Positions 37,769 through 58,323 of a stretch of 64,000 nt of DNA are shown piece by piece (position 1 is the first letter of the stretch; each line of letters starts with the position of its first letter). The notes below the pieces were generated by a model. That model had not been told where the DNA came from and searched no databases. It saw only the letters and a list, made by a program, of their open reading frames with translations. The translations under genes and the position numbers were made by a program. Source of the DNA: an uncultured Clostridia bacterium (lineage in GTDB: Bacteria > Bacillota > Clostridia > Christensenellales > Pumilibacteraceae); contig CAMUKG010000005.1 of the NCBI GenBank assembly GCA_947089425.1, forward strand, positions 1 through 64,000, in the 5' to 3' direction.

Positions 37769-37838
37769 TAAATTGTTATGATACAATATTAAATTTAATG
37801 ATTTTAAAAAATCCGAAAATATTCAAGCGGAGAAAATC

Positions 37839-39176
37839 ATGAGGAGAATTACAGTGAAAAAGCTATCTGCAATTATGTTGTCGTTGGTCTTTCTGTTGTG
37901 CGGATGCTCGTCGGCGCCAAAAGACACGCCGCTCGGCACAAACGCCGAATACGACGTTTTGGGACTCGGGAACATTGCCGTAGGCATGTGGGTTACGCCT
38001 ACCGACGCTTATCGCACCGAAGAACAGTTTAAGTTGCTTTCCGAAAGCGGAATAAACGTTGTGAACGGATTTTGCTATTCGGAAGACACCGATGAAAAGG
38101 TGCAAGCCGTGCTCGATTATTGCGAACAGTTCGGGCTCAAATATCTTTACAGTTCGCTTTCAATCGAGGAAAACATACGCGCCTATAAAGACGCGCCCGA
38201 CGAAAAGCTTATTAGCGCCACTATGGAGCAGATAAACAAATTCGCGTCTCATTCGGCGTATGCGGGGCAGTTGTTTTTAGACGAGCCGTCGGTTGCCTAC
38301 TTCGACGCGTTGAAAGCTTTTATGGGAGCGTATAAAGAAAAATATCCGAATAAGCTTGCCTACGTGAATATGTTACCCAATTACGGCGTTGCGGGATCGG
38401 GAAGTTCGGGCTACGAATCTTACGTTGATAGCTGGCTCGAAAAACTTTCGCCGAATATGTATTCTTACGATAGCTATCCGCTTATAGATTACGACCCTGC
38501 GTTGCCCGGCTACCGCACAGAAATTGAAGATTATTATTACAACCTCGATTTATTGAGAGTTAAAACTCTCAAAGCGGGAATTCCAATGTGGGCGTTTGCG
38601 GCTACTTTGGCTTATGCGCATCCCACAGAACCAAACCGCAGAGAACCCACGCGCGAAGAACTGAGGTGGCAAGTCTTTTCCGACCTTGCGTTCGGCGCTA
38701 AGGGAATTCAATATTTTTGTTACTTCACGCCGAGCCAAGATTCTTACGGAGAGGGTATGGTTACGCGCGGCGGCGTTCCCACCGAACGCTACTACCATGT
38801 GCAAGAGGTGAATAAAGAATTTTCCGCTTACGGAAATATTTTGTTAAACAGCGACGCTGTGGGCGTTATGTTTAACGATTATAGGCGCGACGGGTTCGAT
38901 ATTTATTCGACTCCGCTCGAAAAATTCGGCAAAATCGAAAGCGTGGAAGGCAATCGTTATGTAATAGGCTGTTTCAGCGATAAAAACACGGGCAAGAAAA
39001 GCGTGCTCATATCGCCCACGACGCCGCGCGACGACATAACGCTCACGCTAAACATGGCGAAAGGCGTTAAGAGTGTAACGGCTTATGTCGGCGGCGAAAA
39101 AACTACGCTTGCCGTGAATAACCGTCGTTTAACACTCGATGTTAAACACGGCGACGCCGTTTTGCTCCAACTGTAA
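37839..39176 (+). CDS. lipoprotein of the DEP-motif barrel family, putative glycosidase (paralogue A)
   Basis: 445 residues with a lipoprotein signal (LCGC, Cys23), so it should sit on the outer face of the membrane. The alternating strand/helix body looks like a TIM barrel. It has FLDEP (Asp148-Glu149), YVNMLPNY (175-182), YDSY (210-213) and GAKGIQYFCYF (286-296), shared with the proteins at 46330, 55010 and 57409. Asp/Glu at barrel strand ends suggests glycoside hydrolysis, but I cannot name a family. GGAG precedes the ATG; a GTG five codons later has an AGGAG site and is an alternative start. First gene of module 1. Confidence 0.7.
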   Translation: MRRITVKKLSAIMLSLVFLLCGCSSAPKDTPLGTNAEYDVLGLGNIAVGMWVTPTDAYRTEEQFKLLSESGINVVNGFCYSEDTDEKVQAVLDYCEQFGLKYLYSSLSIEENIRAYKDAPDEKLISATMEQINKFASHSAYAGQLFLDEPSVAYFDALKAFMGAYKEKYPNKLAYVNMLPNYGVAGSGSSGYESYVDSWLEKLSPNMYSYDSYPLIDYDPALPGYRTEIEDYYYNLDLLRVKTLKAGIPMWAFAATLAYAHPTEPNRREPTREELRWQVFSDLAFGAKGIQYFCYFTPSQDSYGEGMVTRGGVPTERYYHVQEVNKEFSAYGNILLNSDAVGVMFNDYRRDGFDIYSTPLEKFGKIESVEGNRYVIGCFSDKNTGKKSVLISPTTPRDDITLTLNMAKGVKSVTAYVGGEKTTLAVNNRRLTLDVKHGDAVLLQL

Positions 39177-39215
39177 TAAAAGTATTTTAAATCGCAGGAA
39201 AAAGGAGAAAAAGTT

Positions 39216-40892
39216 ATGAAAAAGAGGTTTATTGTTTTTGCTCTTGTGCTTACGATGCTTATGCCGTGCGTAGCTTGTTTGGGTTCGGGGAACGAGATAG
39301 ACGAGACCAAGACCCAACTTTATGTAGGCGTGTATGACGGAGGACTCGGAGCCGACAGCGTTTACGCAATGGCGAAAAGGTTCGAAGAAAAATACGCCGA
39401 ACATTCTTTCGAGGAAGGAAGAACGGGCGTTCAAGTGAAAGTTATGCTCAACACTTATAACGACGGACTTGAAAACACTATTGCCGACCTAACGGAAGAA
39501 GTATTTATCGGCACTTCGGCAAACGCGAACTATCTTGCTCGCAAAGGACTTTTAACCGATATTTCGGACGTTTACGACAAGCCGCTGAACTACGATTTCG
39601 TGACGGGCAAAACGGACGCTTCCGCGCCCGACGTTAAGCCCAAAGACAAAATACGCAACGACTTAAAATATTATTACCGAGACGACGAAGGCAAGTATTA
39701 CGGCTTTCCCGGCGCTACCACGTTTTACGGACTTGTGTATGATATTGATTTGTTCGAAGAGCAAAATTTATATTTCGCGAAAGACGGCGGATTTGTGAGT
39801 TCGAAAACGGACGCGCGCTCGGCGGGTCCCGACGGAAACCTCGAAACCGAGTTCGATAACGGGTTGCCAGCGACCTACGAGCAGTTTTTCGAGTTGTGCG
39901 ACAAAATAGTTTCGCTCGATATGACTCCCGTTATGTGGGGCGGCACCGTGCAAGAATACGTAAGCAGTCTTTTAACCGCGCTCGCCGCCGACAACGACGG
40001 AAAAACGCAAACGGAGCTCAATTACAACTATGACGGACTTGCGAACACTCTTGTGTCGAGCGTGAACGGCGATAGCGTGGAGATAGGTGCGAGCGAACAA
40101 ATAAACTCTCGCAACGGCTACAAGCTTTATAAACAAGAGGGCAGGTACCGCGCGCTCGAATTTTTAGAGCGGCTTGTGTCTAATCCCAAATACTTTAACA
40201 AAAGCGACGCAACGAGCAACGCATTCGGCAACACCGACGCGCAAGACGCGTTCCTCACGTCGAAACATCCCGAATTTAACCGCAAACGCACCGCTATGAT
40301 TGTGGAAGGCAACTGGTGGGAAGCGGAGGCTCGCGGAACTTTCCTCGAACTCAGCGCCGAATACGGCGACGAGGATTCGATGGAAACTCGCCGTTTCGGA
40401 ATGTTGCCACTTCCCAAAGCGACGGCGGATAAAGTTGGAGAGCAATACACGTTTTTGGAGCGTTGCGTTGGCGACGGATTTATTAACGGCAATATAGCCG
40501 AATACAAAAAGAATTTGGCTAAGAGTTTCGTGCAGTTTATGTTCACCGACGAATCGTGCGCGGAGTACCTGAAAATAAACAGCATTTGCATGCCGATTGA
40601 ATTCGATATAGGCGACGAATATGCTTCGCTCACCCCTTGGGGCAAAAACATGTACGACTTAAAGCAAAACGCCGTAACCGCCACAATGTATAGTCGCAGT
40701 AAGATTATGCAAAACTACGCTACTGATTTGTGGTATTCGCCAAACCTTTGGCTCAGTAAAGTTGGCGGCACAACCTACACATACCCGTCGTTTGCCATGA
40801 TAAACAACGGCGTGTCGGCAAAAACTTATTTCGACGGACTTTCGGCTTACTGGACGGAAGACACTTGGAAGAGTAAGTTTACCGATATTTAA
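39216..40892 (+). CDS. ABC sugar transporter, substrate-binding lipoprotein (module 1)
   Basis: 558 residues: a signal peptide ending in a lipobox-like CVAC (Cys21), then the two-lobe solute-binding fold of the CUT1 (MalE/LplA-like) class. Signatures include YVGVYDGGLG at the start, TTFYGLVYDIDLFEE, an aromatic MIVEGNWWEAEARG and FVQFMFTDESCAEYLK near the C-terminus. The large size suggests an oligosaccharide ligand. AAAGGAG ribosome site. It is followed by two permease genes; no ATPase gene is present, so a shared MsmX/MsmK-type ATPase encoded elsewhere is implied. Confidence 0.9.
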   Translation: MKKRFIVFALVLTMLMPCVACLGSGNEIDETKTQLYVGVYDGGLGADSVYAMAKRFEEKYAEHSFEEGRTGVQVKVMLNTYNDGLENTIADLTEEVFIGTSANANYLARKGLLTDISDVYDKPLNYDFVTGKTDASAPDVKPKDKIRNDLKYYYRDDEGKYYGFPGATTFYGLVYDIDLFEEQNLYFAKDGGFVSSKTDARSAGPDGNLETEFDNGLPATYEQFFELCDKIVSLDMTPVMWGGTVQEYVSSLLTALAADNDGKTQTELNYNYDGLANTLVSSVNGDSVEIGASEQINSRNGYKLYKQEGRYRALEFLERLVSNPKYFNKSDATSNAFGNTDAQDAFLTSKHPEFNRKRTAMIVEGNWWEAEARGTFLELSAEYGDEDSMETRRFGMLPLPKATADKVGEQYTFLERCVGDGFINGNIAEYKKNLAKSFVQFMFTDESCAEYLKINSICMPIEFDIGDEYASLTPWGKNMYDLKQNAVTATMYSRSKIMQNYATDLWYSPNLWLSKVGGTTYTYPSFAMINNGVSAKTYFDGLSAYWTEDTWKSKFTDI

Positions 40893-40913
40893 AGATAGTT
40901 TGCAGGAGTATTT

Positions 40914-41846
40914 ATGGTTACGGAAGTGAAAAAACGAGCGGGCAAAAAGCGCACGCACGACAGAATATTTTTTGCGTGTTTGGTAACTTTGCCGCTGATA
41001 CATTTTTTCGTTTTCTATATATGCGTGAACTTCAATTCAATTTTGCTCGCTTTTAAGAGCTACAACTCGGACAGCGGCTATTCGTGGGCGGGGTTGCAAA
41101 ACTTTAAAAATTTGTTTTCCGATTTCGGCAAATTCACGTTTTATAAAAAGGCGCTCAAAAATTCTATGCTTGTGTTTTTGGTAGGCACTACCGTTTCGAC
41201 CGTGCTCGCGCTCTTGTTCTCGTATTATATTTATAAAAAAGCGTCGCGAGGTAAAAACGTTTTCAAAGTGTTGCTGTTTATGCCGAGCATAATATCGTCG
41301 ATTGCTATGGCAACCATGTTCAAGCAATTTGCCGACAGCGCAATTCCCAAACTTATTCAAACCGTTTTTCACAAAGAGGTGCAGGGGCTTTTGCAAAATC
41401 CCGACACCACTATGGGAGCTATAATATTTTACAATGTGTGGATAGGGTTCGGCGTGAACATATTGCTGTATTTGGGCGCAATGAACAACATATCCGAGTC
41501 GGTGGTAGAAGCGGCGAAACTCGACGGCGTAACGTTTGTTTCCGAATTTTTCAAAATAACGTTACCGCTTGTGTTCGGAACCGTTCAAACGCTACTCGTG
41601 GTTGCAATAGGCGGAATCTTTATAAATCAGGCGAGTTTGGTGTCGTTTTTCGGCACGACTTCGGAAGAGGAATTTTTTACGATAGGCTATTGGCTTTATA
41701 AAGAAACGGTTAAAAATACGCTCAATAATTCCAACGCGGGGCTTCCTCAACTTTCGGCGTTCGGATTGTTGCTCACTTTCATAACCGTGCCCGTAGTGTA
41801 TTTGTTTAATTGGCTCACGAAAAAATTCGGACCGAGCGCGGAGTGA
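40914..41846 (+). CDS. ABC sugar transporter permease 1 (module 1)
   Basis: 310 residues with six membrane helices, the UgpA/LplB type. The loop that docks the ATPase (EAA motif) is EAAKLDGVTFVSEFFKITLPLV, near residue 200. The GTTVSTVLALLFSYYIYKKASRGKNVFKVLLFMPSIIS stretch is typical of the first partner in CUT1 pairs. CAGGAG ribosome site. The second permease starts 5 nt after its stop. Confidence 0.92.
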   Translation: MVTEVKKRAGKKRTHDRIFFACLVTLPLIHFFVFYICVNFNSILLAFKSYNSDSGYSWAGLQNFKNLFSDFGKFTFYKKALKNSMLVFLVGTTVSTVLALLFSYYIYKKASRGKNVFKVLLFMPSIISSIAMATMFKQFADSAIPKLIQTVFHKEVQGLLQNPDTTMGAIIFYNVWIGFGVNILLYLGAMNNISESVVEAAKLDGVTFVSEFFKITLPLVFGTVQTLLVVAIGGIFINQASLVSFFGTTSEEEFFTIGYWLYKETVKNTLNNSNAGLPQLSAFGLLLTFITVPVVYLFNWLTKKFGPSAE

Positions 41847-41851
41847 GGGAT

Positions 41852-42739
41852 ATGAAAGAAAAAACGAAACGCAAATTCTCATTATCGCCGCTCTCGCTCG
41901 TTATATTCGTAATTCTTATTCTCTACGTTATTTCGCTTTTGGTGCCTCTTTTGTGGTCGCTTCTCACTTCGGTTAAAGGACGTCTTGACTATTTGAACAA
42001 TCCGTTCGGCCTTCCGAAAAAATGGCTGTTTTCAAACTATAAAACCGCCGCCGAAAATTTTGCGTCAAATATCAGCACAAATAAAGGCGTTCGCACGGTG
42101 CAAATTTGGGAAATGCTCTTAAACTCGTTGCTGTTTTCGCTCGGCTCGGCGTTTATAGGCACTTTCGTAACTTGCATAATGGCTTATGCTTCGGCAAGGT
42201 TCAACTTTTTTATGAGCAAAATCATATACGGCATTGTGATAGTTACTATGATTTTGCCGATAGTGGGAAGCTTGCCGTCCGAAATTCAGCTCGTGAAAAC
42301 TCTCGGACTTTACGATTCCATGCTCGGAATGTGGCTCATGAAAGCGGGATTTCTCGGAATGCACTTTCTAATATTTTACGGAGTGTTCAAAGTGCTTCCC
42401 AAAGATTTCTCCGAAGCCGCCTATGTTGACGGAGCGTCTAACCTTGCGGTTATGCTCAAAATAATTTTGCCGCTTGTGCGCAACGCATTCTTCACTATAA
42501 TGCTCATCAAGTTCATAGACTTTTGGAACGACTATTACATGACAATGTCGTTCATGCCGAACATAAAAACGCTCGCTTTCGGACTGTACGAATACAGTCA
42601 GTCGTATAAGCCAGCAATATCGAGCGCGCCGATGAAACTTGCGGGATGTTGCATTCTCGCGGTGCCCATACTTATTCTGTTTTTCTGCTTTCACAATAAA
42701 ATAATGGGCAACGTTTCTATGGGCGGAATAAAAGAATAA
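41852..42739 (+). CDS. ABC sugar transporter permease 2 (module 1)
   Basis: 295 residues from the ATG at 41852, six membrane helices, UgpE/LplC type. The docking loop is EAAYVDGASNLAVMLKIILPLV. The C-terminus ILFFCFHNKIMGNVSMGGIKE is the usual end of the second partner. An upstream in-frame ATG at 41810 lies inside the previous gene and is not favoured. Confidence 0.92.
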   Translation: MKEKTKRKFSLSPLSLVIFVILILYVISLLVPLLWSLLTSVKGRLDYLNNPFGLPKKWLFSNYKTAAENFASNISTNKGVRTVQIWEMLLNSLLFSLGSAFIGTFVTCIMAYASARFNFFMSKIIYGIVIVTMILPIVGSLPSEIQLVKTLGLYDSMLGMWLMKAGFLGMHFLIFYGVFKVLPKDFSEAAYVDGASNLAVMLKIILPLVRNAFFTIMLIKFIDFWNDYYMTMSFMPNIKTLAFGLYEYSQSYKPAISSAPMKLAGCCILAVPILILFFCFHNKIMGNVSMGGIKE

Positions 42740-42788
42740 AACGCCGAAAAATTTATTGAAAAAATGACGCACAGGAGGTCGCGCATTT

Positions 42789-44402
42789 ATGAAAACAAAA
42801 AAGTTACTTACGGTTTTGCTTGCTCTCGTTTTGAGCTTGCCCGTGCTGTCGTCTTGCGGCGAGGTGAAATTCACTATGTCGGACGCCGACCTGCAAATGG
42901 CCATGTACGAAGAGCACGATTTGTCGTTTAAGCTCAAAGGCGCCGATAAATCGGATATAAAGTGGAGCTCTTCCGACCCCAAAACCGCGACGGTACGTAA
43001 CGGCAAAATTACGGCGCTCGCCGTAGGTAACGCAGTTATAACTGGCGAAATTGCGGGTATCAAAAAGGAATGCGCCGTGCTTGTGAGCCGCAACCGCGTG
43101 GGACGAGCTCTCTCGGTGAGCGACAGCAGCGTTAAGCTCGAAGCGGGCGGAAGCAAGACCGTAACCGCTACTTTTAAAGAAAACAGCGAAGTTAAAGACG
43201 TTCCCGTAGTGTGGGAGTCGTCGCGTCCCGAAATAGCGAGCGTGAGCGACGAAGGCGTGATTACGGCGAAAGCTCGCGGCACCGCCGTTGTGTCGGCTTA
43301 CACGCGCTACAAGGGGCAACGCTTCACGCGAGATATTGCAGTTCGCGTTACGGTTACCGAAAATAGCGATGCCGCGCTCGGGTTCGAAGACGAAAACCAT
43401 ACGGGTTCCGAGCTTACTCTTATTGAGTCGGGCAAAACCGAACTCGGTTTTAGCGAGTCCGACAAGGTGTATCGCTATCAAACTGCCGGCGGTTTCGATT
43501 CGCGAGTGTTTGTTGCTCACGCTTACGAAAACGGCAACGAGGCTAAATTCGACCGCCTGTTATTTAAGCTCAAATTCACCGAGCAACCGAGCGAGGGCAC
43601 TTCGCTGTGGCTTGCGGGATATAAAAAAGCGGTGAAAGGAATGCATAACCTCGTCACACAAGACAGTTGCTTTATATTCTACGATGCAAACGGCAAAATA
43701 GCTAAAAGCTTTGACGAAAGCGTTGTGTATACCGTTGCAATAAATTTGAACAAAGCGGGTGACGGCGTAATTAAAGACGGGCAAAAAGCGTTCGAATACG
43801 GTTTTGCTTTCAATGGCACGACAACCGCTTATTTGAGCGACGCAATCCTTTGCTCCGAAGATTATTTTATAGATAACTTCGGCTTCGAGCAACCCGAAGA
43901 ACTTCCCGCTCTTAATTGCGTTTATGCCGAAACGGGCACGGGGCTCAATGTTGGCACCGAACCGCTCGATGAGTTCGATAAATATTGGGTGGCGTACTCG
44001 TCGGGAACGGCTGAGGCGTGGGACAACTGTATTTGGAACAACCGTGTCGCGATAGGGGGCATAGCTTTTTCGCAATACAGAAACTATCAATATATGCGCC
44101 TCGACATAATGTTTACCGACGTGAATATTCGTCACGTTGTGATTTGGACGGGCGGATATTCGGTGCGCTACGAGCCGAGCGGCGTGGTGTCGTCGAGCGA
44201 GGGCACTCCCGAAATGGGCGACCTCAACGTATATTTGGGCGACGAGGAAGTTACGGGTACCCCTCTCGAACCAAATAAGGCTTACACTTTCCGCGTTCGT
44301 ATTCAACGCGACAATCTTGAAAACGTGGCGTTCGGTTTCAGCGTGAACAGCGCGACTAAAAATCCCGTATACTTTGCCGCTCCCGCTTTCACCGACTATT
44401 GA
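42789..44402 (+). CDS. lipoprotein with two Big2-type Ig domains
   Basis: 537 residues. The lipobox LSSC (Cys23) anchors it to the membrane. Two bacterial Ig-like (Big2) domains follow (about 30-102 and 108-195), each with the pattern IxWSSSDPxxATV...GxAVITG and VVWESSRPEIASVS...GTAVVSA. Residues 200-537 form a long beta-rich region in two parts, perhaps carbohydrate-binding (FDSRVFVAHAYENG, FDKYWVAYSSGTAEAWDN). No catalytic motif is seen, so a surface glycan-binding role is inferred. AGGAGG ribosome site. Confidence 0.8.
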   Translation: MKTKKLLTVLLALVLSLPVLSSCGEVKFTMSDADLQMAMYEEHDLSFKLKGADKSDIKWSSSDPKTATVRNGKITALAVGNAVITGEIAGIKKECAVLVSRNRVGRALSVSDSSVKLEAGGSKTVTATFKENSEVKDVPVVWESSRPEIASVSDEGVITAKARGTAVVSAYTRYKGQRFTRDIAVRVTVTENSDAALGFEDENHTGSELTLIESGKTELGFSESDKVYRYQTAGGFDSRVFVAHAYENGNEAKFDRLLFKLKFTEQPSEGTSLWLAGYKKAVKGMHNLVTQDSCFIFYDANGKIAKSFDESVVYTVAINLNKAGDGVIKDGQKAFEYGFAFNGTTTAYLSDAILCSEDYFIDNFGFEQPEELPALNCVYAETGTGLNVGTEPLDEFDKYWVAYSSGTAEAWDNCIWNNRVAIGGIAFSQYRNYQYMRLDIMFTDVNIRHVVIWTGGYSVRYEPSGVVSSSEGTPEMGDLNVYLGDEEVTGTPLEPNKAYTFRVRIQRDNLENVAFGFSVNSATKNPVYFAAPAFTDY

Positions 44403-44411
44403 GAGGAAAAA

Positions 44412-46421
44412 ATGGTATTTGAAAATTCAGAATGGATATGGCTTTCCGATTCCGCCTGCGAAACGAACGAATACGGCGAATTTTTGTGCGAGTTCGTTTT
44501 GCCCGCGTCTGCGGAAATAACGTTGCGAATTTGCGCAAAGTCAGATTACGCCGCGTTCTTAAACGGCGAATTTGCGGGGTTTAATCAATATCCCGATTTT
44601 CCCGACGAAAAGATTTACGACGAGTATTCGCTTAAAGCAAAAAAAGGAAAAAACATGCTCGCGGTGTCGGCGCTGTCTAAAAATTATTCCACGTCGTCGC
44701 ACATGGCGAACGGCAAGGGGATAATATTCGAAGTATTTTCGTGCGAAAAGGAAGTGGCGTGTTCAAGCGTTCGCGTGCTGTCAAGGCTTTCTAAAACTTA
44801 CGCATCGGGCGAATTGCCTTATGTTACAACTCAGCTCGGAATGTCGTTTTCATACGATTTTAGGAAAGAAGACGATTGGAAGACAGGAAATGTGAAAGGA
44901 TTTTCGGAAAGCGTTGTGTGCGACATTAAACGCAATTTTGCGCCCCGTCCCGTGCGAAAACTCGATACAAGCAATATTGTGCCATTTGAGAGCTTGGGAA
45001 AAGGGCTGTACGGCGCGAAACGCGAGTATGCGGGGTATTTGTGTTTCGATATAGAGAGCGACTCCGAAAAGGAGCTGACGGTTTCTTACGGCGAGCATAT
45101 TCTCGACGGAAGCGTGCGAAGAAAAATACATAACCGCGATTTTTCGGTAAAGTTTATTCTCAAAAAAGGGCGCAACGTATTCCGAGAATATTTTTTGCGG
45201 TTCGGGCTTAGATATTTGCAACTCAGTCGCACCGACGTGAGCGTGAACTTTTTGGGTATAGCGGAAGCCGTTTATCCTCACGAATACAAGCGGTATTCGG
45301 GCAAAGCGGTTTCTTGCGAAATTTATGACGTAGCCATTCGCACGCTCGACTGTTGCATACACGAGCATTATGAAGATTGTCCGTGGCGCGAACAGGCGCA
45401 GTACGCTATGGACAGTCGTACGCAAATTCTTTGCGGCTATAAAGCTTTCGGCGAAACGCAAATGCCCGCCGCGTCGCTTAGAGCTATGGCGCACCGACTC
45501 ACTTCGCAAAAGGTGTTGCCCATAACCTCTCCGAGCGACAGCGAGCTTTCCATACCGTCGTTTTCTCTCGTGTATCCTTTAATGCTGAAAGAGTATTATG
45601 ATGAAACGGGCGACAAAAAATTACTGTTCGACGTTTTCGAAAACACGCGAGCAATGCTCGAACATTATATTTCGGTAATGAGCGACGGGCTCATTCCGAC
45701 GCTTGCGGAATGGAACTTTTTCGAGTGGGAAGCGGGGCTCGACAACAGTGACGAAATTTTCGAGCAACGGGCGCAAAGCGACAAATATTCGCTTCCCGTA
45801 AACGCTTTTGCGGTGAAAGCTTTGAATAGTTTCGCTTTTATATGCGACACGCTCGGCTATTGCTCAAACGTAGGCAGTCGATATCGCGAGATTGCCGAAG
45901 GTTTGCGCGAGAGAGCGCACAAAGTTTTTCTCGCCGACGACGGACTTTTCCGAACTTATTTCGAAAAAGGAAAGCTCGAACATTTGAGCGAATATTCGCA
46001 AGTGCTCGCTCTTTATAGCGGAATAGCTGAAAATGAGGAAAGAAAAAAACTGCTTGACCTTATTACGGGCGAGAACGCGCTTGTGCCGCTTACGGTGAGC
46101 AATTACATTTTTAAGTATGAGGTGTTGCTCGAAGCGGGCGGCTATAATGAGTATATAAAGAAAGATATTGAAGAAAAATGGGGTTATATGTTAAAGCGCG
46201 GCGCCACTACGTTTTGGGAAACAATTAAAGGCGCGCAAGACTTTGACGGCGCGGGGAGCTTGTGTCACGGTTGGAGCGCCGTTCCGGTGTTTGTAGCGTG
46301 GGAATTGGAAAAAGGAGAACATAAAGAAAATGAAAAAAAACAAAATATTGCCGTTGGCGGCTCCGGTAGCGGTTCTGTTGGCGGTTCTTATGTGGGGCGC
46401 GTTGTTGCCGACCGCGCGTAA
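44412..46421 (+). CDS. alpha-L-rhamnosidase-like glycoside hydrolase (GH78 type)
   Basis: 669 residues without a signal peptide, so probably cytosolic. An N-terminal beta domain (about 1-285; SEWIWLSDS, SDYAAFLNGEF) is followed by the (alpha/alpha)6 barrel. The GH78 motif EDCPWREQ starts at Glu321, and the far end has TTFWETIKGAQ followed by SLCHGWSAVPVF, also characteristic. It should remove terminal L-rhamnose from imported oligosaccharides. After LEKGEH the frame continues 30 codons in a Gly/Ser-rich, unnatural-looking tail, overlapping the start of the next gene by 92 nt. Confidence 0.85.
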   Translation: MVFENSEWIWLSDSACETNEYGEFLCEFVLPASAEITLRICAKSDYAAFLNGEFAGFNQYPDFPDEKIYDEYSLKAKKGKNMLAVSALSKNYSTSSHMANGKGIIFEVFSCEKEVACSSVRVLSRLSKTYASGELPYVTTQLGMSFSYDFRKEDDWKTGNVKGFSESVVCDIKRNFAPRPVRKLDTSNIVPFESLGKGLYGAKREYAGYLCFDIESDSEKELTVSYGEHILDGSVRRKIHNRDFSVKFILKKGRNVFREYFLRFGLRYLQLSRTDVSVNFLGIAEAVYPHEYKRYSGKAVSCEIYDVAIRTLDCCIHEHYEDCPWREQAQYAMDSRTQILCGYKAFGETQMPAASLRAMAHRLTSQKVLPITSPSDSELSIPSFSLVYPLMLKEYYDETGDKKLLFDVFENTRAMLEHYISVMSDGLIPTLAEWNFFEWEAGLDNSDEIFEQRAQSDKYSLPVNAFAVKALNSFAFICDTLGYCSNVGSRYREIAEGLRERAHKVFLADDGLFRTYFEKGKLEHLSEYSQVLALYSGIAENEERKKLLDLITGENALVPLTVSNYIFKYEVLLEAGGYNEYIKKDIEEKWGYMLKRGATTFWETIKGAQDFDGAGSLCHGWSAVPVFVAWELEKGEHKENEKKQNIAVGGSGSGSVGGSYVGRVVADRA

Positions 46422-48378
46422 CGTTGCCTATGGAGCGGAACTTATGAGCGGAGAAAAATACGTCGATAAAATCGATTCGGCGGCGAACGTCGGGCAAAGA
46501 GCAGATACTTACAACATATCGCTTTTATCCGACAATGCGGGAGCGGTAGGCGACACTTCTCGCGCAATATACGGCTCAAACCCTAACGCAACCGAGAGCT
46601 ATCTCGATTACGCGCTTAAAGGGCAAGATACGGCTGTTGTGTATTTGTATGAGAAGATTTTGACGGGGAACAAGCGTCCCGAGTCTAAGTTGCCGAAATT
46701 TTCGGTAATAGGCACTAATTGGGAAACGGAGCACGCCTCAATCGAAGTCGAATTCGGAAGAAGCAAAGAGCCATTGCGTTATACGAGAATAAAGCTTACC
46801 TATAAGCTCGATTCTCCGTTCTCCGATAAAACTTTGAGAATACATATTTATCCGCAGAGCGAGCCCGAACTTTTGCAGTTGGGGCGTGTGGAACTGTATA
46901 ACTCGGCGCAAACGCAAACCGAAACGGTGAAAATAAACGAAAGCGGGTTTAGCGTGTCGGGGTGGATAACTCCGCCGGAAATCGGCGAGAGCGATATTTC
47001 CGACTCGGTAGACTTCGAAAACGCAATGACCGAACTTGTCGCAAGCGGAATAAACTTTAATTTACCTAATATTTGGAGCGGCGACACGTTGTATTATCGC
47101 AAACGCCTTACCGACGCGTGTTCTAAACTCGGCATAAAAACGCTTGTATACGATGCGGCGCTCATAGATTACTTAAAAGGCGGAAGCTATAATGAGGCTA
47201 CCGCGCGCGCTATGATTGCGGCTTACGCAAGCGATGAGAGCTTTGCGGGGCACTTTATAATGGACGAGCCGAACGGCAACGAACTCGACGCGCTCAAAGT
47301 GGCGGCACAGCGGTATCACGCGCTTTTGCCTAACAAAATATTCTATGTGAATTTGTTTCCCAATTACGCTATTTCGGAGTATGACGAATACTTGAACAAG
47401 TATTTCGACACTATCGGCGAAAGCAGGGTGTCGTACGACTATTATGTGCTCGAAGGCAGAGTGCCCGCCGAATACAAAATGAAAACGACGCACTTGCTGA
47501 ATTTGCAAACTGCGGCTGTTTCGGCGCAGATGCACAATGCCGACCTTTACGCAATTATAGCGTCTACGGGGCACTATAACCCGTCCGACAAGGCGTATCT
47601 TCGCAACATAGGCAGTAAAGCCGATTTGGGATTTCAAGCGTATAGCGCGCTTGCATACGGCGCTAAGGGACTTACTTGGTTCACTTATCTTTCTATGGCG
47701 AACGGAGAGTTCGGCGCACAGCCCGGAATGTTCGACCTTAGCGGAAACAAAACTAAGGTATACGACTACGTTCAAGAGTTGAATGCCGATATAGCTTCGT
47801 TTGCCGACGTTTATCTTAGCTACGATTGGAAGGGCACAATGCTTATAGAAGGTTCTCTCGGCGAGAAAAACGCCAACTTCGAGGCTGTGAGCGAACCGTT
47901 GAAAGAACACGTGGCAATAAGAGGCTTTGAAACGAAGCACGACGTTATTGCGGGAACGTTCAATAACGGCAAAAACGACGCTATGCTTTTGGCGAACTAT
48001 AACGACCCGTCGCTTAACGTTATGCCCGAAGTTACCGTTATTTTCGATAAGCCGTATTTGCTCAAAATTTACTCGAACGGAACGCAAAAGGAAGTGCGAA
48101 TGAAGAGCAATTCCCACACGTTCTATCTTGCTAACGGCGGCGGCGCGTTTATAGAGTTTTCGGAGTTTAAAGACGAACCTACCGACGAACCGAACGGCGG
48201 AGCCGAAAAGCCGCCCGCGAGCGGCAACGAAACGCAAACGCCCGAAGCTAAAAATTCGGGTTGTTCGAGCGCCTTAAAGACTTCTTCTTCCGTAACCGCG
48301 CTTGCGTTCGGAGCCGTAATATTATCGTTAATTATCGGCATGATGCCGAAAAAAATTATAAGGAGAAAATCAAAATGA
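46330..48378 (+). CDS. membrane-anchored DEP-motif barrel protein, putative glycosidase (paralogue B)
   Basis: 682 residues. Signal peptide (1-36); a beta-rich N-terminal domain (about 42-192) also present in the next protein; then the putative barrel with MDEP (Asp312-Glu313), YVNLFPNY (339-346), YDYY (369-372) and GAKGLTWFTYL (444-454); a beta domain; a Pro/Glu/Asn linker; and finally a Cys (GCSSA), a membrane helix and a basic end (KKIIRRKSK). The last part resembles a C-terminal sorting signal. AAAGGAG precedes the ATG, which lies inside the rhamnosidase frame. It is probably displayed on the cell surface to act on polymer. Confidence 0.72.
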   Translation: MKKNKILPLAAPVAVLLAVLMWGALLPTARNVAYGAELMSGEKYVDKIDSAANVGQRADTYNISLLSDNAGAVGDTSRAIYGSNPNATESYLDYALKGQDTAVVYLYEKILTGNKRPESKLPKFSVIGTNWETEHASIEVEFGRSKEPLRYTRIKLTYKLDSPFSDKTLRIHIYPQSEPELLQLGRVELYNSAQTQTETVKINESGFSVSGWITPPEIGESDISDSVDFENAMTELVASGINFNLPNIWSGDTLYYRKRLTDACSKLGIKTLVYDAALIDYLKGGSYNEATARAMIAAYASDESFAGHFIMDEPNGNELDALKVAAQRYHALLPNKIFYVNLFPNYAISEYDEYLNKYFDTIGESRVSYDYYVLEGRVPAEYKMKTTHLLNLQTAAVSAQMHNADLYAIIASTGHYNPSDKAYLRNIGSKADLGFQAYSALAYGAKGLTWFTYLSMANGEFGAQPGMFDLSGNKTKVYDYVQELNADIASFADVYLSYDWKGTMLIEGSLGEKNANFEAVSEPLKEHVAIRGFETKHDVIAGTFNNGKNDAMLLANYNDPSLNVMPEVTVIFDKPYLLKIYSNGTQKEVRMKSNSHTFYLANGGGAFIEFSEFKDEPTDEPNGGAEKPPASGNETQTPEAKNSGCSSALKTSSSVTALAFGAVILSLIIGMMPKKIIRRKSK

Positions 48379-50108
48379 TGAAGGTAAAACAAAGACTGGG
48401 TGTAGTTGCCGCGCTGATACTTGCGTTGACGCTTGTGTTCGGAGGTTTCGCGCATATTGCGGCGCGAGCGGAAGATGCGGGTGGGGGTACTATTTCGCCT
48501 ATTATAGACGAATGCGATTCTACGGTAAATACAGAAGCAAAAGAATATTATTCGGTGGCAATACAAACTTCGGAAGAGGGAAAACCCGATAATCCTAATG
48601 CCGATTTGGGGTTCGGCGCGGACAGTAGATTTATATCCACTAAATCGCCGACAGCAGCACCTACATTGGCAAATATGTGGGAAGCCGATTATGGTTACTT
48701 AAATTATAAAGTGAGCGGGCACAATCTTATCAAAGTTACGGTAGATACCGCACCCGAAGCAGTCGGCGCGTTTGACCCTATATTTGTTTATGCACATAAC
48801 GGCGGCGGAGTTTTGGAAGTAAATAATACGGTCAAGACGCCGTCGAGTAATTGGACGCGAATCGAATACACGTATATAATAGCGGAAGGTGCCGAGTATG
48901 TTCGCGTTATTCCGTCCGCGTATGTGGAGGGCGACGCGAAAGCTATGTGGATGCAACAAATAACCAAAGTTGAAATCACTCGCGTAGAAGAATTGCCTCC
49001 CAAAGACGAGGTTACGGTTGCTCCCGTTTATACCGATATTTGCAACGGTAATGCAATTGAAGGACAGCGCGCCAAAGACGGCGTTTATAATGTTGCCGTG
49101 AATAACGATAGGCAGGATAAAATAGGCGACCCCGACCGCATTATATTCGGCGCAAATCCCGGTGCGGACCAGTCGTACATAGACTATAATCTTAAAAGTC
49201 AGGATACCGTAATAGTAACGGCATACGAGGAAATCCTCGAAAACAATGCGCGTCCCGAAAGTGCGACAATTGTAAAATTTTCGCTTTTCGGAAAGAATTG
49301 GGAAGTTGACGCCACCGAAGTTAAAGTTGAGCTCGGAGATTACGCAACGGGGCGCTGGACTAAATTAAATTTCATATTTAAACTCGATAATGTGAGCGAC
49401 GGCAAAGTGCGCGTGCATATTTACAAGCCAGCCGATGGGCAGAGCGAAATAGAACTCGGTCATGTAGATATTTACGACAGCAACACCGCGAACGTGGCTA
49501 AACTTAACGCAAAGCACGATTTGGAACGCTATTCGTACCTCAAAGGACAAAGCAATTACAGTTCCGTTAAATGGGCTGAACTTCGTAATATTTGCAACGA
49601 GGCGCTTGCGGCAATCGACGGAGCCGAAGATTCGGAAGTGGAAGCGATTGTAACTGAAGCGAAAGCGGACATGAACGCCGTTCTTACCGCCGTTGCCGAA
49701 TTCGAGGCAAACAAAGCCGTTTGGAAGAAAGAAATAACCGATTTTGCCAACGAAAAAGGCGAAAGCAATTACACCGCCGAAAACTGGGCGAAAATTCAAG
49801 GATTCGTAACCGAAGCGCATGAAAAAATCGACGCCGCCACAAGCGACAATGCGGCAACCAATGCCATATTAGACGCTAAGGAAAAAATCAACGAAGTTGA
49901 GAAAAAGCAAGAGGGCGGCAACGGTGACGACGGTAATCCCGACGACAACAATCCTAACGGCGGCGACCAACAAAAACCCGAAGAAACCAAAAAGAAGAAG
50001 TGCGGCGGCGAACTTTCCGCAAGCGGCTTCGCTCTTTCGCTCGGCGCTCTCATGCTCGCAATAGCGGTATGCGCACTCGTCGCTCGCAAAAAAGCAAGCA
50101 AAGAATAA
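48375..50108 (+). CDS. cell-surface scaffold protein with carbohydrate-binding-like and FIVAR domains
   Basis: 577 residues, overlapping the previous gene by 4 nt (ATGA), with AAGGAG upstream. Signal peptide (to about 33); a beta-sandwich-like domain (about 37-205); a second beta domain (about 212-370) homologous to the N-terminal domain of the protein before it (DICNGNAIEGQRAKDGVYNV against KIDSAANVGQRADTYNI); two FIVAR helical repeats (SNYSSVKWAEL and SNYTAENWAKI); an Asp/Asn-Gly linker; then KKCGG, a membrane helix and ARKKASKE. No enzyme motif is seen; it probably binds the glycan at the surface. Last gene of module 1. Confidence 0.75.
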   Translation: MMKVKQRLGVVAALILALTLVFGGFAHIAARAEDAGGGTISPIIDECDSTVNTEAKEYYSVAIQTSEEGKPDNPNADLGFGADSRFISTKSPTAAPTLANMWEADYGYLNYKVSGHNLIKVTVDTAPEAVGAFDPIFVYAHNGGGVLEVNNTVKTPSSNWTRIEYTYIIAEGAEYVRVIPSAYVEGDAKAMWMQQITKVEITRVEELPPKDEVTVAPVYTDICNGNAIEGQRAKDGVYNVAVNNDRQDKIGDPDRIIFGANPGADQSYIDYNLKSQDTVIVTAYEEILENNARPESATIVKFSLFGKNWEVDATEVKVELGDYATGRWTKLNFIFKLDNVSDGKVRVHIYKPADGQSEIELGHVDIYDSNTANVAKLNAKHDLERYSYLKGQSNYSSVKWAELRNICNEALAAIDGAEDSEVEAIVTEAKADMNAVLTAVAEFEANKAVWKKEITDFANEKGESNYTAENWAKIQGFVTEAHEKIDAATSDNAATNAILDAKEKINEVEKKQEGGNGDDGNPDDNNPNGGDQQKPEETKKKKCGGELSASGFALSLGALMLAIAVCALVARKKASKE

Positions 50109-50135
50109 ATAACAAATTGCCTAATGGCTAAGCAA

Positions 50136-51343: not shown

Positions 51344-51349
51344 AAAAAC

Positions 51350-51378
51350 AGTATACAATATTTTTTATTAAAAAACAA
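51350..51378 (-). promoter_or_regulatory. promoter of the module 2 AraC gene, leaderless
   Basis: On the minus strand TTGTTT (51378-51373), a 17-nt spacer and TATACT (51355-51350), with exactly 6 nt to the ATG. Confidence 0.65.
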
Positions 51379-51387
51379 TACATTTGG

Positions 51388-51435
51388 TGTGATTTTCTTT
51401 ACTTTTGATACAGGAAATGAAAAAAATCACAAAAA
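51388..51435. promoter_or_regulatory. candidate AraC operator of module 2, inverted repeat
   Basis: TGTGATTTT (51388-51396) and AAAATCACA (51423-51431) are a perfect 9-bp inverted repeat, 26 nt apart, between the two divergent promoters. The right arm extends to ATCACAAAAA (51426-51435), which differs by one base from the ATCATAAAAA element in front of module 1 and ends 6 nt before the -35. Confidence 0.5.
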
Positions 51436-51441
51436 TACATC

Positions 51442-51470
51442 TTGAAATGCTCATTTTGCTGTGTTATACT
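51442..51470 (+). promoter_or_regulatory. promoter of glycan module 2
   Basis: TTGAAA (51442-51447), a 17-nt spacer and TATACT (51465-51470), 90 nt before the binding-protein gene. Confidence 0.68.
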
Positions 51471-51559
51471 GTATTCAGGTTTAAACGACCGACAAATTAA
51501 AATTCGCTTTCCGAAATGTGCGGAGAGCGGCAAAAAATCGCAGGAGGTTAGTGGTGATT

Positions 51560-53134: not shown

Positions 53135-53138
53135 AGCG

Positions 53139-54056
53139 ATGAAAAGCGAGCGAGTGAAAAGTAATTTTTTTCGTAGCAGAAAGATACGGCGAGGCATCTT
53201 TATAGGTGCTATGCTAAGCATAGGACTCATTCAGTTCGGCATTTTCTGGGTTTACGTGAATATCGACTCCATTTTGTTGGCGTTCAAGCTCACTACTCGC
53301 ACGGGAGTGAGTTGGGGGTTCGACAACTTCAAAAGGTTTTTCCACGAGTTCAAAATGCCCGACATGGAGCTGTCGCTCGCCCTTACGAACACGTTTTTGC
53401 TGTTTTTGGTGGGCACCGTAATGGGACTCCCAGTGTCGCTTTTGTTTGCGTACTACCTTTATAAAAAAGTGCCGTGCTCCAAGTTCTTTCGCGTAGTGTT
53501 CTTTCTTCCGTCTATAATATCCGCCGCCGTGCTCGTGGCACTGTTTAAGTATTTGCTTGCGGTCGAAGGACCCGTAAATACCATTCTTTCGGCGCTTACG
53601 GGGCGAGAAGTGAGTATCGAATGGCTCACCGACGAAAAGTATAGCATGGGCACTATTCTGTTCTACGTTTTTTGGACGGGGTTCGGGAGCAATATAGTGC
53701 TCCTCACGGGCGCTATTCACAGGCTTCCCGTCGACGTGCTCGAATACGCGAAACTCGACGGCGTTAAAATGACGCGCGAACTCGTGCAAATTATCATTCC
53801 CATGATATGGCCGACGCTTTCCACTCTTTTGGTGTTTGCAACGGCGGGACTGTTTACGAACTCCGGTCCGATACTGTTGTTCACCGAAGGTCAATACAAA
53901 ACCATGACAATAGGGTACTTTATATTCAGTGAAGTGCAAAGCAATTCCTACGAGTATCCCGCCGCCATAGGGCTTATATTCACAGTGATAGGTTTTCCGC
54001 TCGTGTTGATCGTGAAAGGAGTGCTCGGGAAAATTTTCGAGGATGTGGAGTATTAA
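53139..54056 (+). CDS. ABC sugar transporter permease 1 (module 2)
   Basis: 305 residues from the ATG at 53139, 4 nt after the binding-protein stop. Six membrane helices and the ATPase-docking loop EYAKLDGVKMTRELVQIIIPMI, where the usual EAA is EYA. Its organisation is the same as the first permease of module 1 (YYLYKKVPCSKFFRVVFFLPSIISAAVLVALFK). Only a weak GGA ribosome site is present, so translational coupling is likely. Confidence 0.9.
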   Translation: MKSERVKSNFFRSRKIRRGIFIGAMLSIGLIQFGIFWVYVNIDSILLAFKLTTRTGVSWGFDNFKRFFHEFKMPDMELSLALTNTFLLFLVGTVMGLPVSLLFAYYLYKKVPCSKFFRVVFFLPSIISAAVLVALFKYLLAVEGPVNTILSALTGREVSIEWLTDEKYSMGTILFYVFWTGFGSNIVLLTGAIHRLPVDVLEYAKLDGVKMTRELVQIIIPMIWPTLSTLLVFATAGLFTNSGPILLFTEGQYKTMTIGYFIFSEVQSNSYEYPAAIGLIFTVIGFPLVLIVKGVLGKIFEDVEY

Positions 54057-54101
54057 AATGAATGTAATGTCAGACATATTATCGCATGGGAGAAGCGAAA
54101 A

Positions 54102-54962
54102 ATGCTAAAAAGCTTTTTGAAACGTCCTAAAACCGAGAAAATAGTGCTTTCGCTCGTTTTCGTATTCTTTTTCGTATATGCAGTTACAATCATTCTTCCG
54201 TTCGTGTGGGCGTTTTTGAGTTCGCTTAAAACCGACGACGAATATTACGAAAAGGTGTTTGCGCTACCCAAGCAATGGCTTTTCAGCAATTATATAATGG
54301 CGTTCCGCGAGTTTAAGATAGGCGCCACTTCTATGCTCGGCATGATAGGAAACAGCTTGTGGCTCACTTTTGCGGGTACGTTCGTGGCGGTTATGGTATC
54401 GAGCGCTACGGCGTATATAGTTGCCAAATATCCGTTTTGGGGAAGCAAGCTCATTTACAGAATAGCGATATTCACAATGATTATTCCTATAGTTGGCAAT
54501 CTTCCCGCAACGTATAAGCTCGTTATGCAACTGCAACTTAATAATCCGATAGGAATTTTGGCGCTATACGCGGGCGGGTTCGGCTTCAACTTTATAATTC
54601 TGCACGGGTTTTATAGGTCGGTTTCGTGGACATATGCCGAAGCGGGGTTTATAGACGGAGCTTCCGATTGGAAAGTGTATTGGCGAATAATTTTGCCTCA
54701 GGCTTTGCCCGCCATCGTGTCGATTGCCATACTTAGCTGTATCGGAATATGGAACGACTATTACACGCCGTTTTTGTACCTTAAAAATTCGCCTACTTTG
54801 GCGCTCGGCATTTATCAGTTCGACATTATTCAAACATACCGAAGCAACGTGCCCATTTACTACTGCGCGATACTGCTTTCGGTTCTGCCCATTTTAATCG
54901 TGTTTTGCTGTTTTCAAAACACAATTATGGAAAACACGGTTGCGGGCGGTTTAAAAGGTTGA
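54102..54962 (+). CDS. ABC sugar transporter permease 2 (module 2)
   Basis: 286 residues, six membrane helices, UgpE/LplC type. The docking loop is EAGFIDGASDWKVYWRIILPQA and the C-terminus FCCFQNTIMENTVAGGLKG is usual for the class. GGGAG ribosome site. A 45-nt spacer separates it from the first permease. As in module 1, no ATPase gene accompanies it. Confidence 0.92.
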   Translation: MLKSFLKRPKTEKIVLSLVFVFFFVYAVTIILPFVWAFLSSLKTDDEYYEKVFALPKQWLFSNYIMAFREFKIGATSMLGMIGNSLWLTFAGTFVAVMVSSATAYIVAKYPFWGSKLIYRIAIFTMIIPIVGNLPATYKLVMQLQLNNPIGILALYAGGFGFNFIILHGFYRSVSWTYAEAGFIDGASDWKVYWRIILPQALPAIVSIAILSCIGIWNDYYTPFLYLKNSPTLALGIYQFDIIQTYRSNVPIYYCAILLSVLPILIVFCCFQNTIMENTVAGGLKG

Positions 54963-55009
54963 AACGGAGCAATCCGCTAAACAAAATAAAATTATTTTTT
55001 GGAGGGACT

Positions 55010-57337
55010 ATGAAAAAGAAAAAAAAATGGCTAATCGCCTTGCTTACCGCGCTCGTATGTTTATGCGTGGCGTTTGCAACCGCGTGCGGCACGACGACGG
55101 ACAAACCGAACGGCGACGACGGGGACAAAGAGCCGGGAGGAGACACGACGACGATTATTTCGTCCGACTGGGAAACAATGCCCGAAAACAAGAACGAGAA
55201 CCTGAAATACTTCGGTTATTTTCACGGCGACGGCTTCCGTTCGCAAGGCTCTTACATAAGCGAAATAGCTTCGCTTAAAAACGCCAACGTAATTATGATA
55301 AACTCGGCTTGGAGCCATGCCGCCGCGCAAGAAAGCCTTGCGGCTGTTAAAGCGGCTGGCATGAAAGCGATTTTCTCGGTTCACGGCATGTTTACGGGAG
55401 GAAAGATTACCGAAGCAAACACCGCCACGCTTGTGCCTAATCACGAGGCTGTGTGGGACGAAACCGCTACGTCTATTGCGGAATATATAGAAGACGGAAC
55501 AATTCTCGGATTCTATTTCGACGAGCCCGCTTGGAACGGCGTGCCCGAAGACGCTTTCCGTACCGTAACGAAAATGTTGCGCGATAAATATCCCGATATA
55601 AAAGTTATAACCACAATGACGGGGTACGACATAGGCATTGCGAAATACGAAGGATTTCCCGAATTGAACGCGTCGTATAACGAATACTGCACCGACGTGA
55701 TGTATGACAGTTACGGAAAGTGGAACGACGAAACTCGCCGCGAGTATCTTGAAAAGCTTAAATCCAAAGCGCTCCAAAATCAATGGATTTGGGGTTGCCC
55801 CAAAGGCTTCTCTGATAATCCCGAGCAGACGGGCGAAATGGTTGCCCACATAAAGGGCATGTACACCGAAGCTATTCAGGAACCTCGTTATGCGGGCATT
55901 GTTTCGTTCTCGTATGCCGACGGCATAGAGGGCGACTGGGGCTACGGGCTTCACACGTTCTTTAACAATTCGGGCGATTACTACGATAAAGCCTTAAAGA
56001 ATTTATACGTTGATATAGGGCGAGAAGTAATCGGTTTGCCCGCATGGGACCACTCAAAAGACGTTGACCTTGCGCTTTTGGAGCCTACCGAAGTTTACGA
56101 GCTCGGCGACACTGTGGAACTTCCGGCGGCGGGCGCTCTCGACGGCAACGACAAAGAACTCGAAGTAACCTATTCGGTAACTTCTCCGTCGGGCAAGGCT
56201 ATGGCGGCGGAAAGCTTTAAGGCTACCGAAAGCGGGCATTACACCGTTACGGTGAGCGCGGGCGAGGGCGAAAACAAACAAACCAAATCCACGATAGTGT
56301 CGGTGCGCTATCCCGACGAAATAAGCGTGTTCGATACTCCCGCATATCTTTCGGACGCCGACGGCACCGACCCCGACACATGGTGCTGGCCCCGTCAGAT
56401 AGACACAACGTTCTCTCACGGCGAAACGGGGGGGGGTAGCCTTAAAATAACTCCTCACGCAAAAGACGGAACTTGGCCTCGCATTATTTTTGCGCGCAAC
56501 GGTTATAGACTTTGGGATATTTCGGAATACGATTATATTTCCATGTGGGCGTATAATGCGGGCGACGAGGAAATAAAAGGATTTGCTCTGTTCGTTTCCG
56601 ACGAGGACATAAACAACGGAAATAAAGTGGGCTCCACAGTGAGCTTGCCTTCTAAGGTATGGACGGAAGTTACTCTCTCGGTAGCGAAAGTTAGAGAAAA
56701 TAAGCCAAACCTCGACCTTACTAAGGTGACTATTGTGTATGGTAACGACGCATCCGACTATAAGAACAGGAGTGTGTTCTACGTAGACGACGTTATGCTT
56801 AAAAATAACGAGGAACTTCCCGACCCCAATGTTATTAGCTTCGAGAAAGCCGCCGATTTGGATAGAATAGGCGGAACTGCCGACGATATTTGGCGTTGGC
56901 CGGTGTCGCTCAGCGACGAGCAGGCGCACGGCGGTAGCAAGTCGTTGAAAATAACGGTACGCCAAGAGGGCGGCGCGTGGCCTAACGTTGTGTTTCAAGG
57001 AATAAGCGCGCCCACGTTCGATTTAACAGACGCTTCCGAAATTTCGGTGTGGATTTACTTCGATTCGGAAGAGGGAATTGCAATTGACGGAACTACAAGA
57101 TTCGGGTTCAAAATAAATAACGGCGAAGGGAATAAACAAGCAATAAAAATGTTTGCTATTCCCGCCCGTACTTGGACTAAATTAACCATAACAAAAGAAG
57201 AAATACTTCAGCTTGCAGGGGATATCGATTTAACGCAAGCATGTATTTCCATAGCGTCGGTTGGTAGCGATTATACGAATACTGCAAATTTTTACCTCGA
57301 CGATTTTCTTATCACTGTAAATCAAGAACAGGCTTAA
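55010..57337 (+). CDS. lipoprotein DEP-motif barrel with Ig-like and two carbohydrate-binding-like domains (paralogue C)
   Basis: 775 residues from the ATG at 55010 (GGAGGG upstream). Lipobox TAC (Cys26) and an acidic Gly/Asp/Thr linker. The putative barrel (about 65-385) has FDEP (Asp171-Glu172), MYDSYGKWN (231-239) and GIVSFSY (296-302). An Ig-like domain (about 395-455) and two homologous beta-sandwich domains of about 165 residues follow, each ending in a YxDD strand (VFYVDDVML, NFYLDDFLI). They resemble carbohydrate-binding modules. A run of nine G lies at 56428-56436 in the first of these. An outer-surface glycosidase is inferred; the family is not assigned. Confidence 0.72.
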   Translation: MKKKKKWLIALLTALVCLCVAFATACGTTTDKPNGDDGDKEPGGDTTTIISSDWETMPENKNENLKYFGYFHGDGFRSQGSYISEIASLKNANVIMINSAWSHAAAQESLAAVKAAGMKAIFSVHGMFTGGKITEANTATLVPNHEAVWDETATSIAEYIEDGTILGFYFDEPAWNGVPEDAFRTVTKMLRDKYPDIKVITTMTGYDIGIAKYEGFPELNASYNEYCTDVMYDSYGKWNDETRREYLEKLKSKALQNQWIWGCPKGFSDNPEQTGEMVAHIKGMYTEAIQEPRYAGIVSFSYADGIEGDWGYGLHTFFNNSGDYYDKALKNLYVDIGREVIGLPAWDHSKDVDLALLEPTEVYELGDTVELPAAGALDGNDKELEVTYSVTSPSGKAMAAESFKATESGHYTVTVSAGEGENKQTKSTIVSVRYPDEISVFDTPAYLSDADGTDPDTWCWPRQIDTTFSHGETGGGSLKITPHAKDGTWPRIIFARNGYRLWDISEYDYISMWAYNAGDEEIKGFALFVSDEDINNGNKVGSTVSLPSKVWTEVTLSVAKVRENKPNLDLTKVTIVYGNDASDYKNRSVFYVDDVMLKNNEELPDPNVISFEKAADLDRIGGTADDIWRWPVSLSDEQAHGGSKSLKITVRQEGGAWPNVVFQGISAPTFDLTDASEISVWIYFDSEEGIAIDGTTRFGFKINNGEGNKQAIKMFAIPARTWTKLTITKEEILQLAGDIDLTQACISIASVGSDYTNTANFYLDDFLITVNQEQA

Positions 57338-57348
57338 ACTAAAAATCA

Positions 57349-57391
57349 AACGCGTTGCCCGCCGCGCTCGTATTCGGGCGCGGCGCGCGTT
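57349..57391 (+). promoter_or_regulatory. strong GC-rich intergenic stem-loop
   Basis: AACGCG (57349-57354) pairs with CGCGTT (57386-57391), and CGCCGCGC (57360-57367) pairs with GCGCGGCG (57378-57385) around a 10-nt loop. No T tract follows, so it is not a classic terminator. It ends 17 nt before the next ATG and may adjust transcript stability or expression between the two barrel genes. Confidence 0.55.
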
Positions 57392-57408
57392 AACGCAAAA
57401 GGAACAGT

Positions 57409-58323
57409 ATGGGACAGACTTTATTCGGTATTTTTCACAGCGCCTACGAGCGCGCGCCCTCGTATTTTTTCGAGGCGGCAAAAAGCAATTATATAAACAC
57501 TTTTTTGGTGGAGTCGGACTATCGCAGTGAGGAATTCGCCGTGAGTATGAATGAAATTGCGCGCCGCTCCGATAAAAAAGCATGGCTCGGAGTAACCTAT
57601 CTCGGTTTTAAAAGTATCAATAACGCAACTATTGTCGACAACGGAGAAAGCAAGTCGGAATTTAATCCGACCACCGAATTTCTTGCCGATTACCGTAAAA
57701 ACGTGAACGACATGATTGCCGAACTCAAAGCGCGCGGCTGGTACGACAGCGTTGCGGGATTTTACATGGACGAACCCATGCTGTGGAATATTAAAAACGA
57801 TTGGCTCGAAGAGTTTACGGGGTATTTTCGCACCGAAGCGGCGTCCGAAAAACGCTTTTTCGTTTGCTTTTCCATTGCGGGAGTTGCGCCCGAATTTTGG
57901 ACGATTAACAATATCGAGCCGATAAATCCGAAATCGACGCAATATTTAACGGATATTGCGTTCGACATGTATCACAAATGGAACGCCGATTACAACGAAA
58001 TTTTGCGCCTCATGCTCGAACGCACAGGCAATCGCAAAGATTTGCGGGTGTGGATGATTCCGTGCACTATGAATTACAGAGGAGACAAGAGCGAGGAATA
58101 TTGCATAGAGCATTTAAACGGCTGTTACGAGACTTTAAAAAGACTTCCGTGCAAAGGCGGGCTCATGTGCTTTACTTACTACACTTTTTTGCCCAAAGAG
58201 GAAGCGCTCGGCAATATAGGGCTCGATAAACTTTCGGAAAGCGATTATAAAGACTACTGGCCCGCGCTTGTTTCGCGCATACGCGAAATAGGGCGCGAAA
58301 TCGTGGCGGGCGAGTTGGGTTGA
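57409..58323 (+). CDS. cytosolic DEP-motif barrel protein, putative glycosidase (paralogue D)
   Basis: 304 residues, no signal peptide: a minimal single-domain member of the family. It has YMDEP (Asp121-Glu122), FDMYHKWN (185-192), closely matching MYDSYGKWN of paralogue C, and GLMCFTYY (251-258). It begins directly with the first barrel strand (LFGIFHSAYE) and contains no added domains. AAAGGA precedes the ATG. Lying between a surface paralogue and an alpha-galactosidase, it may finish degradation of the imported oligosaccharide. Function is inferred only. Confidence 0.72.
   Translation: MGQTLFGIFHSAYERAPSYFFEAAKSNYINTFLVESDYRSEEFAVSMNEIARRSDKKAWLGVTYLGFKSINNATIVDNGESKSEFNPTTEFLADYRKNVNDMIAELKARGWYDSVAGFYMDEPMLWNIKNDWLEEFTGYFRTEAASEKRFFVCFSIAGVAPEFWTINNIEPINPKSTQYLTDIAFDMYHKWNADYNEILRLMLERTGNRKDLRVWMIPCTMNYRGDKSEEYCIEHLNGCYETLKRLPCKGGLMCFTYYTFLPKEEALGNIGLDKLSESDYKDYWPALVSRIREIGREIVAGELG

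Follow-up and report, generated by a model that had tools for sequence, protein, structure and literature searches.

What do four proteins that share one ordered row of motifs do within a single glycan locus? The question is raised by an uncultured Clostridia bacterium (Christensenellales; Pumilibacteraceae; assembly GCA_947089425.1), in which positions 1 to 64,000 of contig CAMUKG010000005.1, the whole 64,000-nucleotide stretch analysed here and called the window below, encode the proteins A (37839..39176; 445 amino acids), B (46330..48378; 682), C (55010..57337; 775) and D (57409..58323; 304), all on the forward strand. An earlier reading of the DNA letters (the sequence-only reading) had claimed open frames starting at 37839, 46330, 55010 and 57409, and all four are present. 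We predict, with a probability of about 0.42, that A to D are triosephosphate isomerase (TIM) barrel glycoside hydrolases which have no acid at the place of the strand-7 nucleophile of glycoside hydrolase family 42 (GH42), and which act by substrate-assisted catalysis on N-acetylhexosamine linkages. The four proteins are not ordinary, they are not proven either, and their mechanism is a prediction.

To define the shared motif, we scanned the 178 stop-to-stop segments of the window with at least 100 residues (open codons) for [LMFI]DEP, followed by [YF]DxY at 50-75 residues and then by GxxxFxY at 50-90 residues. It turned out that only A, B, C and D contain the ordered motif (4 of 178), while none of 80,000 shuffled versions (20,000 per protein) does, as expected from the claim of a common ordered motif. 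The stricter form [FY][LMF]DEP, which had been claimed for all four, holds for A, C and D and fails for B, which reads IMDEP. The words YVN[ML][LF]PNY and GAKG are common to A and B, and [YF]DxYxKWN is common to C and D, just as had been described. AlphaFold2 gave barrels for A and D (predicted local distance difference test, pLDDT, 94.7 and 93.1), and in both models DEP closes strand 4 and DxY comes after strand 6, in agreement with the expected barrel with Asp and Glu at strand ends. By model and alignment, these motifs are at 38280..38288 (D148, E149, P150) and 38469..38477 (D211-Y213) in A, and at 57769..57777 and 57964..57972 in D. The corresponding DEP and DxY are at 47263..47271 and 47437..47445 in B according to the A-family profile match, and at 55520..55528 and 55706..55714 in C according to profile comparison and alignment.

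The key difference from known enzymes is found at the catalytic residues of GH42. A matches the Pfam GH42 model (PF02449) with 25.3 bits against a cut-off of 21, and only over profile positions 254-374 of 376, while B, C and D have no family above cut-off in Pfam or NCBIfam; the claim that the family is unassigned is supported for B, C and D. The A/B family is large and covers several phyla, and at E<=1 the GH42 model reaches 60 of 70 members. For residue counts, we took 143 open frames matching the A profile from loci L001-L136, reduced to 138 by removing those with equal last 200 residues, and each denominator is the number of rows with a residue at the given place. No row departs from D148, E149 and P150 (133 of 133) or from D211 and Y213 (137 of 137), and N177 is kept in 130 of 133. 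Profile comparison between the A family and GH42 (93%) places the NE of GH42 on DE and its strand-7 Glu on Ala254 of A (38598..38600), the column to which residue 324 of 4uoq, whose title names the mutated nucleophile E324A, is also aligned; in the HMMER alignment to 5e9a, the strand-4 piece is not significant alone. Like GH42, the A-type proteins keep the acid/base Glu that closes strand 4 (E149), but the residue before it is Asp in every A-type row and Asn in the three GH42s compared, which makes good the remark that DE stands unusually where clan GH-A has NE. The nucleophile differs as well. The residue in its column is Ile, Val, Ala, Ser or Phe throughout the 70-row A alignment, and Glu is found in one of 137 rows, L008, which is a real GH42 (673 residues; GH42 481 bits) of which the A profile caught only strands 6-8; the other 136 rows have none. 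Besides, the GH42 proteins compared have 647-712 amino acids, compared with the 445 of A. In our own alignment the corresponding place is Pro in 67 of 68 D-type rows and Pro or Ala in 44 of 46 C-type rows, while DEP is kept in all 68 D-type rows and, in the 46 C-type rows, as D in 46, E in 45 and P in 46. As far as aligned residues tell, DE instead of NE goes with the loss of the strand-7 nucleophile in the A-type family, which by its catalytic residues is not GH42, and C/D are unassigned in Pfam and NCBIfam.

The four proteins had been described as paralogues of one family, and this is too strong, since the link between the pairs is mostly visible only from profile to profile. B matches the A-family profile with 100% probability over 389 columns and C matches the D-family profile with 98.8% over 274 columns; between profiles, the C and D families reach 99.8%, the A and D families 85% over 275 columns, in which DEP, DxY and the strand-8 motif line up, as the note of shared motifs in similar spacing had suggested, and the C and A families 86% over 164 columns. 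Single sequences across the pairs are mostly weak (0.9% for D with the A profile; with the D profile, 1.6% for A and 3.0% for B; with the C profile, 0.1% for both A and B), with the exception of C against the A profile (49%). Single control sequences (GH36, an AP-endonuclease-type barrel, IMPDH, two GH20 and GH78) never exceeded 1.5% with the three profiles, and a three-sequence GH42 profile reached 0.2% with the D family and 0.5% with the C family. A/B and C/D are thus two families of one probable superfamily.

Diversification within the locus was not borne out either. In a FastTree tree of 134 sequences (136 unique matches, from which two too short were removed), the distance between A and B is 3.4 and each has closer relatives in other genomes: A groups with A-types of Pumilibacter muris and metagenomes, and beside B stand its counterpart from P. 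muris and further relatives. This rules out a recent A/B duplication in the locus. P. muris is the closest named genome that came up, its locus L058 having 82% identity to window positions 36753-48516, and the gene order A-B-C-D is kept in genome G002. The source genome has five A-type places and two C/D-type places. D-type genes are rare, being found in 2 of 121 relatives and, within the class, in a single one of 391 genomes, namely the source genome. Two of the A-type open frames of the source genome (L005 and L006; 1265 and 1196 codons) have long C-terminal regions after the barrel, which end in Gly/Cys and a hydrophobic stretch.

The architecture around the barrels differs among the four. 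A consists of a barrel and a C-terminal beta domain, and B of an N-terminal module like a carbohydrate-binding module (CBM), an A-type barrel and, as its sequence reads, a C-terminal membrane helix. C has a D-type barrel followed by two similar CBM-like stretches of about 160 residues each (CBM_4_9, PF02018, is annotated on 3 relatives of C), and D is a bare barrel. As the sequences read, A and C likely carry lipoprotein signals, and D, in which no signal peptide was seen, is apparently cytosolic. Residues 44-192 of B, its N-terminal module, also occur with 42% identity in the next protein (48261-50108), which has no barrel, and are likely a shared glycan-binding or surface module.

How could such barrels work? 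The missing Glu at the GH42 nucleophile place predicts other chemistry for A/B, and an acid/base that is kept, an Asn changed to Asp and a nucleophile that is gone are together what substrate-assisted catalysis would need. In clan GH-A, the Asn before the acid/base touches the sugar 2-hydroxyl. In the predicted N-acetylhexosaminidases A to D, the Asp at this place would hold and polarise the 2-acetamido group while the Glu of DEP would serve as acid/base, as in GH42 and GH123; the acetamido oxygen would attack C1 to form an oxazolinium intermediate, which water would then open. Outside the cell, A, B and C would cut a glycan containing rhamnose, galactose and also N-acetylhexosamine, and D would work on imported pieces inside.

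Several known families come near this layout. GH20 beta-N-acetylhexosaminidases use an Asp-Glu pair on strand 4 in a substrate-assisted mechanism, and a GH20 gene adjoins some A-type genes, but A to D have no PF00728 match and profile comparison gives at most 1.0%. The clan GH-A families GH5, GH2 and GH164 use Asn-Glu and a strand-7 Glu, whereas D has Asp-Glu and Pro at the strand-7 place. A further likeness is to GH123 (DUF4091), the beta-N-acetylgalactosaminidases, which have consecutive Asp-Glu on strand 4, often as DEP, like A to D: among 19 aligned GH123 sequences all have DE and 12 have DEP. The C-type profile matches GH123 with 60% over 127 columns around the DE motif and the D-type profile with 39% over 67 columns around DEP, while five single GH123 sequences ranged from 0.1 to 67%; the resemblance of C/D to GH123 is weak and lies around its catalytic DE motif. 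The Asp of GH123 is the acetamido stabiliser and the Glu is the acid/base (PMC11087588). GH123 differs by its PF13320 match, by a W-x-Tyr after DE (Tyr in 19 of 19) and by the N-terminal beta-sandwich domain of its fold (PMC11087588). Membership in GH123 by family search was rejected, since PF13320 (GH123 / DUF4091) matches none of A to D and nothing in the source genome, and the A-type profile reaches only 0.4% against the GH123 profile, which is no match. We also dropped a 65-residue step from the DE Asp to an invariant Tyr, by which GH123 had been equated with A, as the Tyr is read on strand 7 in GH123 and on strand 6 in A. When A, D and the D alignment were searched by sequence against solved structures, no credible match came up, and GH123 is absent among the VIA structural matches listed for A and D, which excludes nothing.

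To see what surrounds relatives of A, we searched 79 loci of titled genome records (1.26 Mb; the best 79 of at least 535 confirmed stretches) with 12 reference proteins by phmmer at 1e-10. A NagK-like kinase is found in 6 of the 79 loci, a SIS isomerase-type protein in 5, GH20 in 3 and GH78 in 4, so that some amino-sugar marker (GH20, NagK-like or SIS) is present in 9 loci. The reference kinases pass Pfam BcrAD_BadFG and stay below the NagK equivalog cut-off, and the SIS references pass theirs. The loci with kinase and SIS belong to three Cohnella, Wenjunlia and an uncultured Clostridia. For GH20, a background of 98 matches, counted over 33 genomes (about 181 Mb by rounded sizes), gives about 0.7 expected in 79 loci compared with 3 found, the latter by a narrower search; for SIS_2, the count covers just 11 genomes, whose selection rested in part on SIS_2 in their loci, and no expectation was derived from it. 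In the Paludibacter locus L065, a GH78-GH20 fusion protein stands directly before two A-type genes. The only GH20 match of the source genome is on another contig than the window (contig C7, locus L007), about 210 bases after an A-type match, whose frame of 289 codons is without the DEP half and is broken or differently arranged. On the whole, amino-sugar genes near relatives lend modest support to the hexosaminidase reading.

Many observations weigh against it. On the side of GH123, apart from the very low A-type profile match, the W-x-Tyr is not kept: in our own alignment its place is Phe in 83, Tyr in 22 and Ile in 19 of 137 A-type rows, and Ile or Val in 67 of 68 D-type rows. Foldseek relates D to the GH123-type NgaAt at E 1.6e-4, but with a root-mean-square deviation of 10.2, and in structure A is matched best by GH42 and D by GH5/GH2. 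An acid stands one or two residues beyond the nucleophile place in three A-type rows, and the strand-6 DxY is also present in the real GH42 of L008 and is therefore no sign of a new mechanism. The recognisable partners of A to D in the window are a GH78-type rhamnosidase (44412..46421, forward strand; PF17389, 89.8 bits) and a melibiase-type protein (58387..60474, forward strand; PF02065, 128.8 bits), and the Pfam scan of 18 window genes, a set which does not include all of the transporter, regulator and some other genes, revealed no amino-sugar gene. Further, all three amino-sugar markers are missing from 70 of the 79 loci, and every one of the three loci with GH20 comes from a single genus, Paludibacter, which keeps the GH20 support modest.

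The GH78 and melibiase partners in the window speak for another explanation, in which A to D are glycosidases or lyases on a rhamnose- or galactose-containing glycan with no need of an N-acetyl group, the Glu of DEP being the acid and the strand-6 Asp or the DEP Asp the base, probably in an inverting reaction. GH78 near A-type genes and the invariant strand-6 Asp agree with it; yet this Asp is also found in ordinary retaining GH42 and is thus likely structural, and the change from Asn to Asp before the acid/base is left unexplained, so we consider this explanation somewhat unlikely. That the proteins are ordinary retaining enzymes like beta-galactosidases, with some other carboxylate as nucleophile, is improbable, as no invariant acid was found near strand 7 at the places examined in 136 A-type, 68 D-type and 46 C-type rows. 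The lost nucleophile, the apparent surface attachment of A, B and C as read from their sequences, and the CBM-like repeats of C would also suit non-catalytic glycan-binding proteins derived from glycosidases, but Asp-Glu is invariant across sequences from many phyla and even the apparently cytosolic bare barrel D keeps it throughout its family, which makes this quite improbable.

Some other features of these loci are worth recording. The GH78 frame and the start of B have 92 bases in common, and the overlap is also seen in the P. muris locus (frames end at 18582, and the B frame opens by 18338). An AP_endonuc_2-type and a GFO_IDH_MocA-type protein close the window (62019-63952), a family pair known from 3-keto glycoside pathways. 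In four Bacteroidota loci (L061, L062, L064 and L065), A-type genes occur in tandem pairs, with SusC/SusD-like proteins upstream, by reading, where the locus reaches. In a Paenibacillus locus (L078), a 676-residue protein at 11170-13197 with no Pfam match at E 0.01 is located beside the A-type gene, and a similar one is found in L077.

Among the open-licence papers listed, none describes this family, judged by titles and abstract starts. We propose, tentatively and below an even chance, that the A-type and C/D-type proteins represent glycosidase families not yet recognised, whose clan GH-A barrel traded Asn-Glu and its nucleophile for Asp-Glu and the acetamido group of the substrate across many phyla, and whose members are now often labelled beta-galactosidase. 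If the predicted substrate-assisted mechanism is true, many proteins caught by the GH42 model (at least 535 stretches encode A-type relatives) would have another substrate and another chemistry, and glycan loci carrying A-type genes would have been misread. It would also be a clear case of a retaining lineage that lost its nucleophile and borrows one from the substrate, a change of mechanism within one fold.

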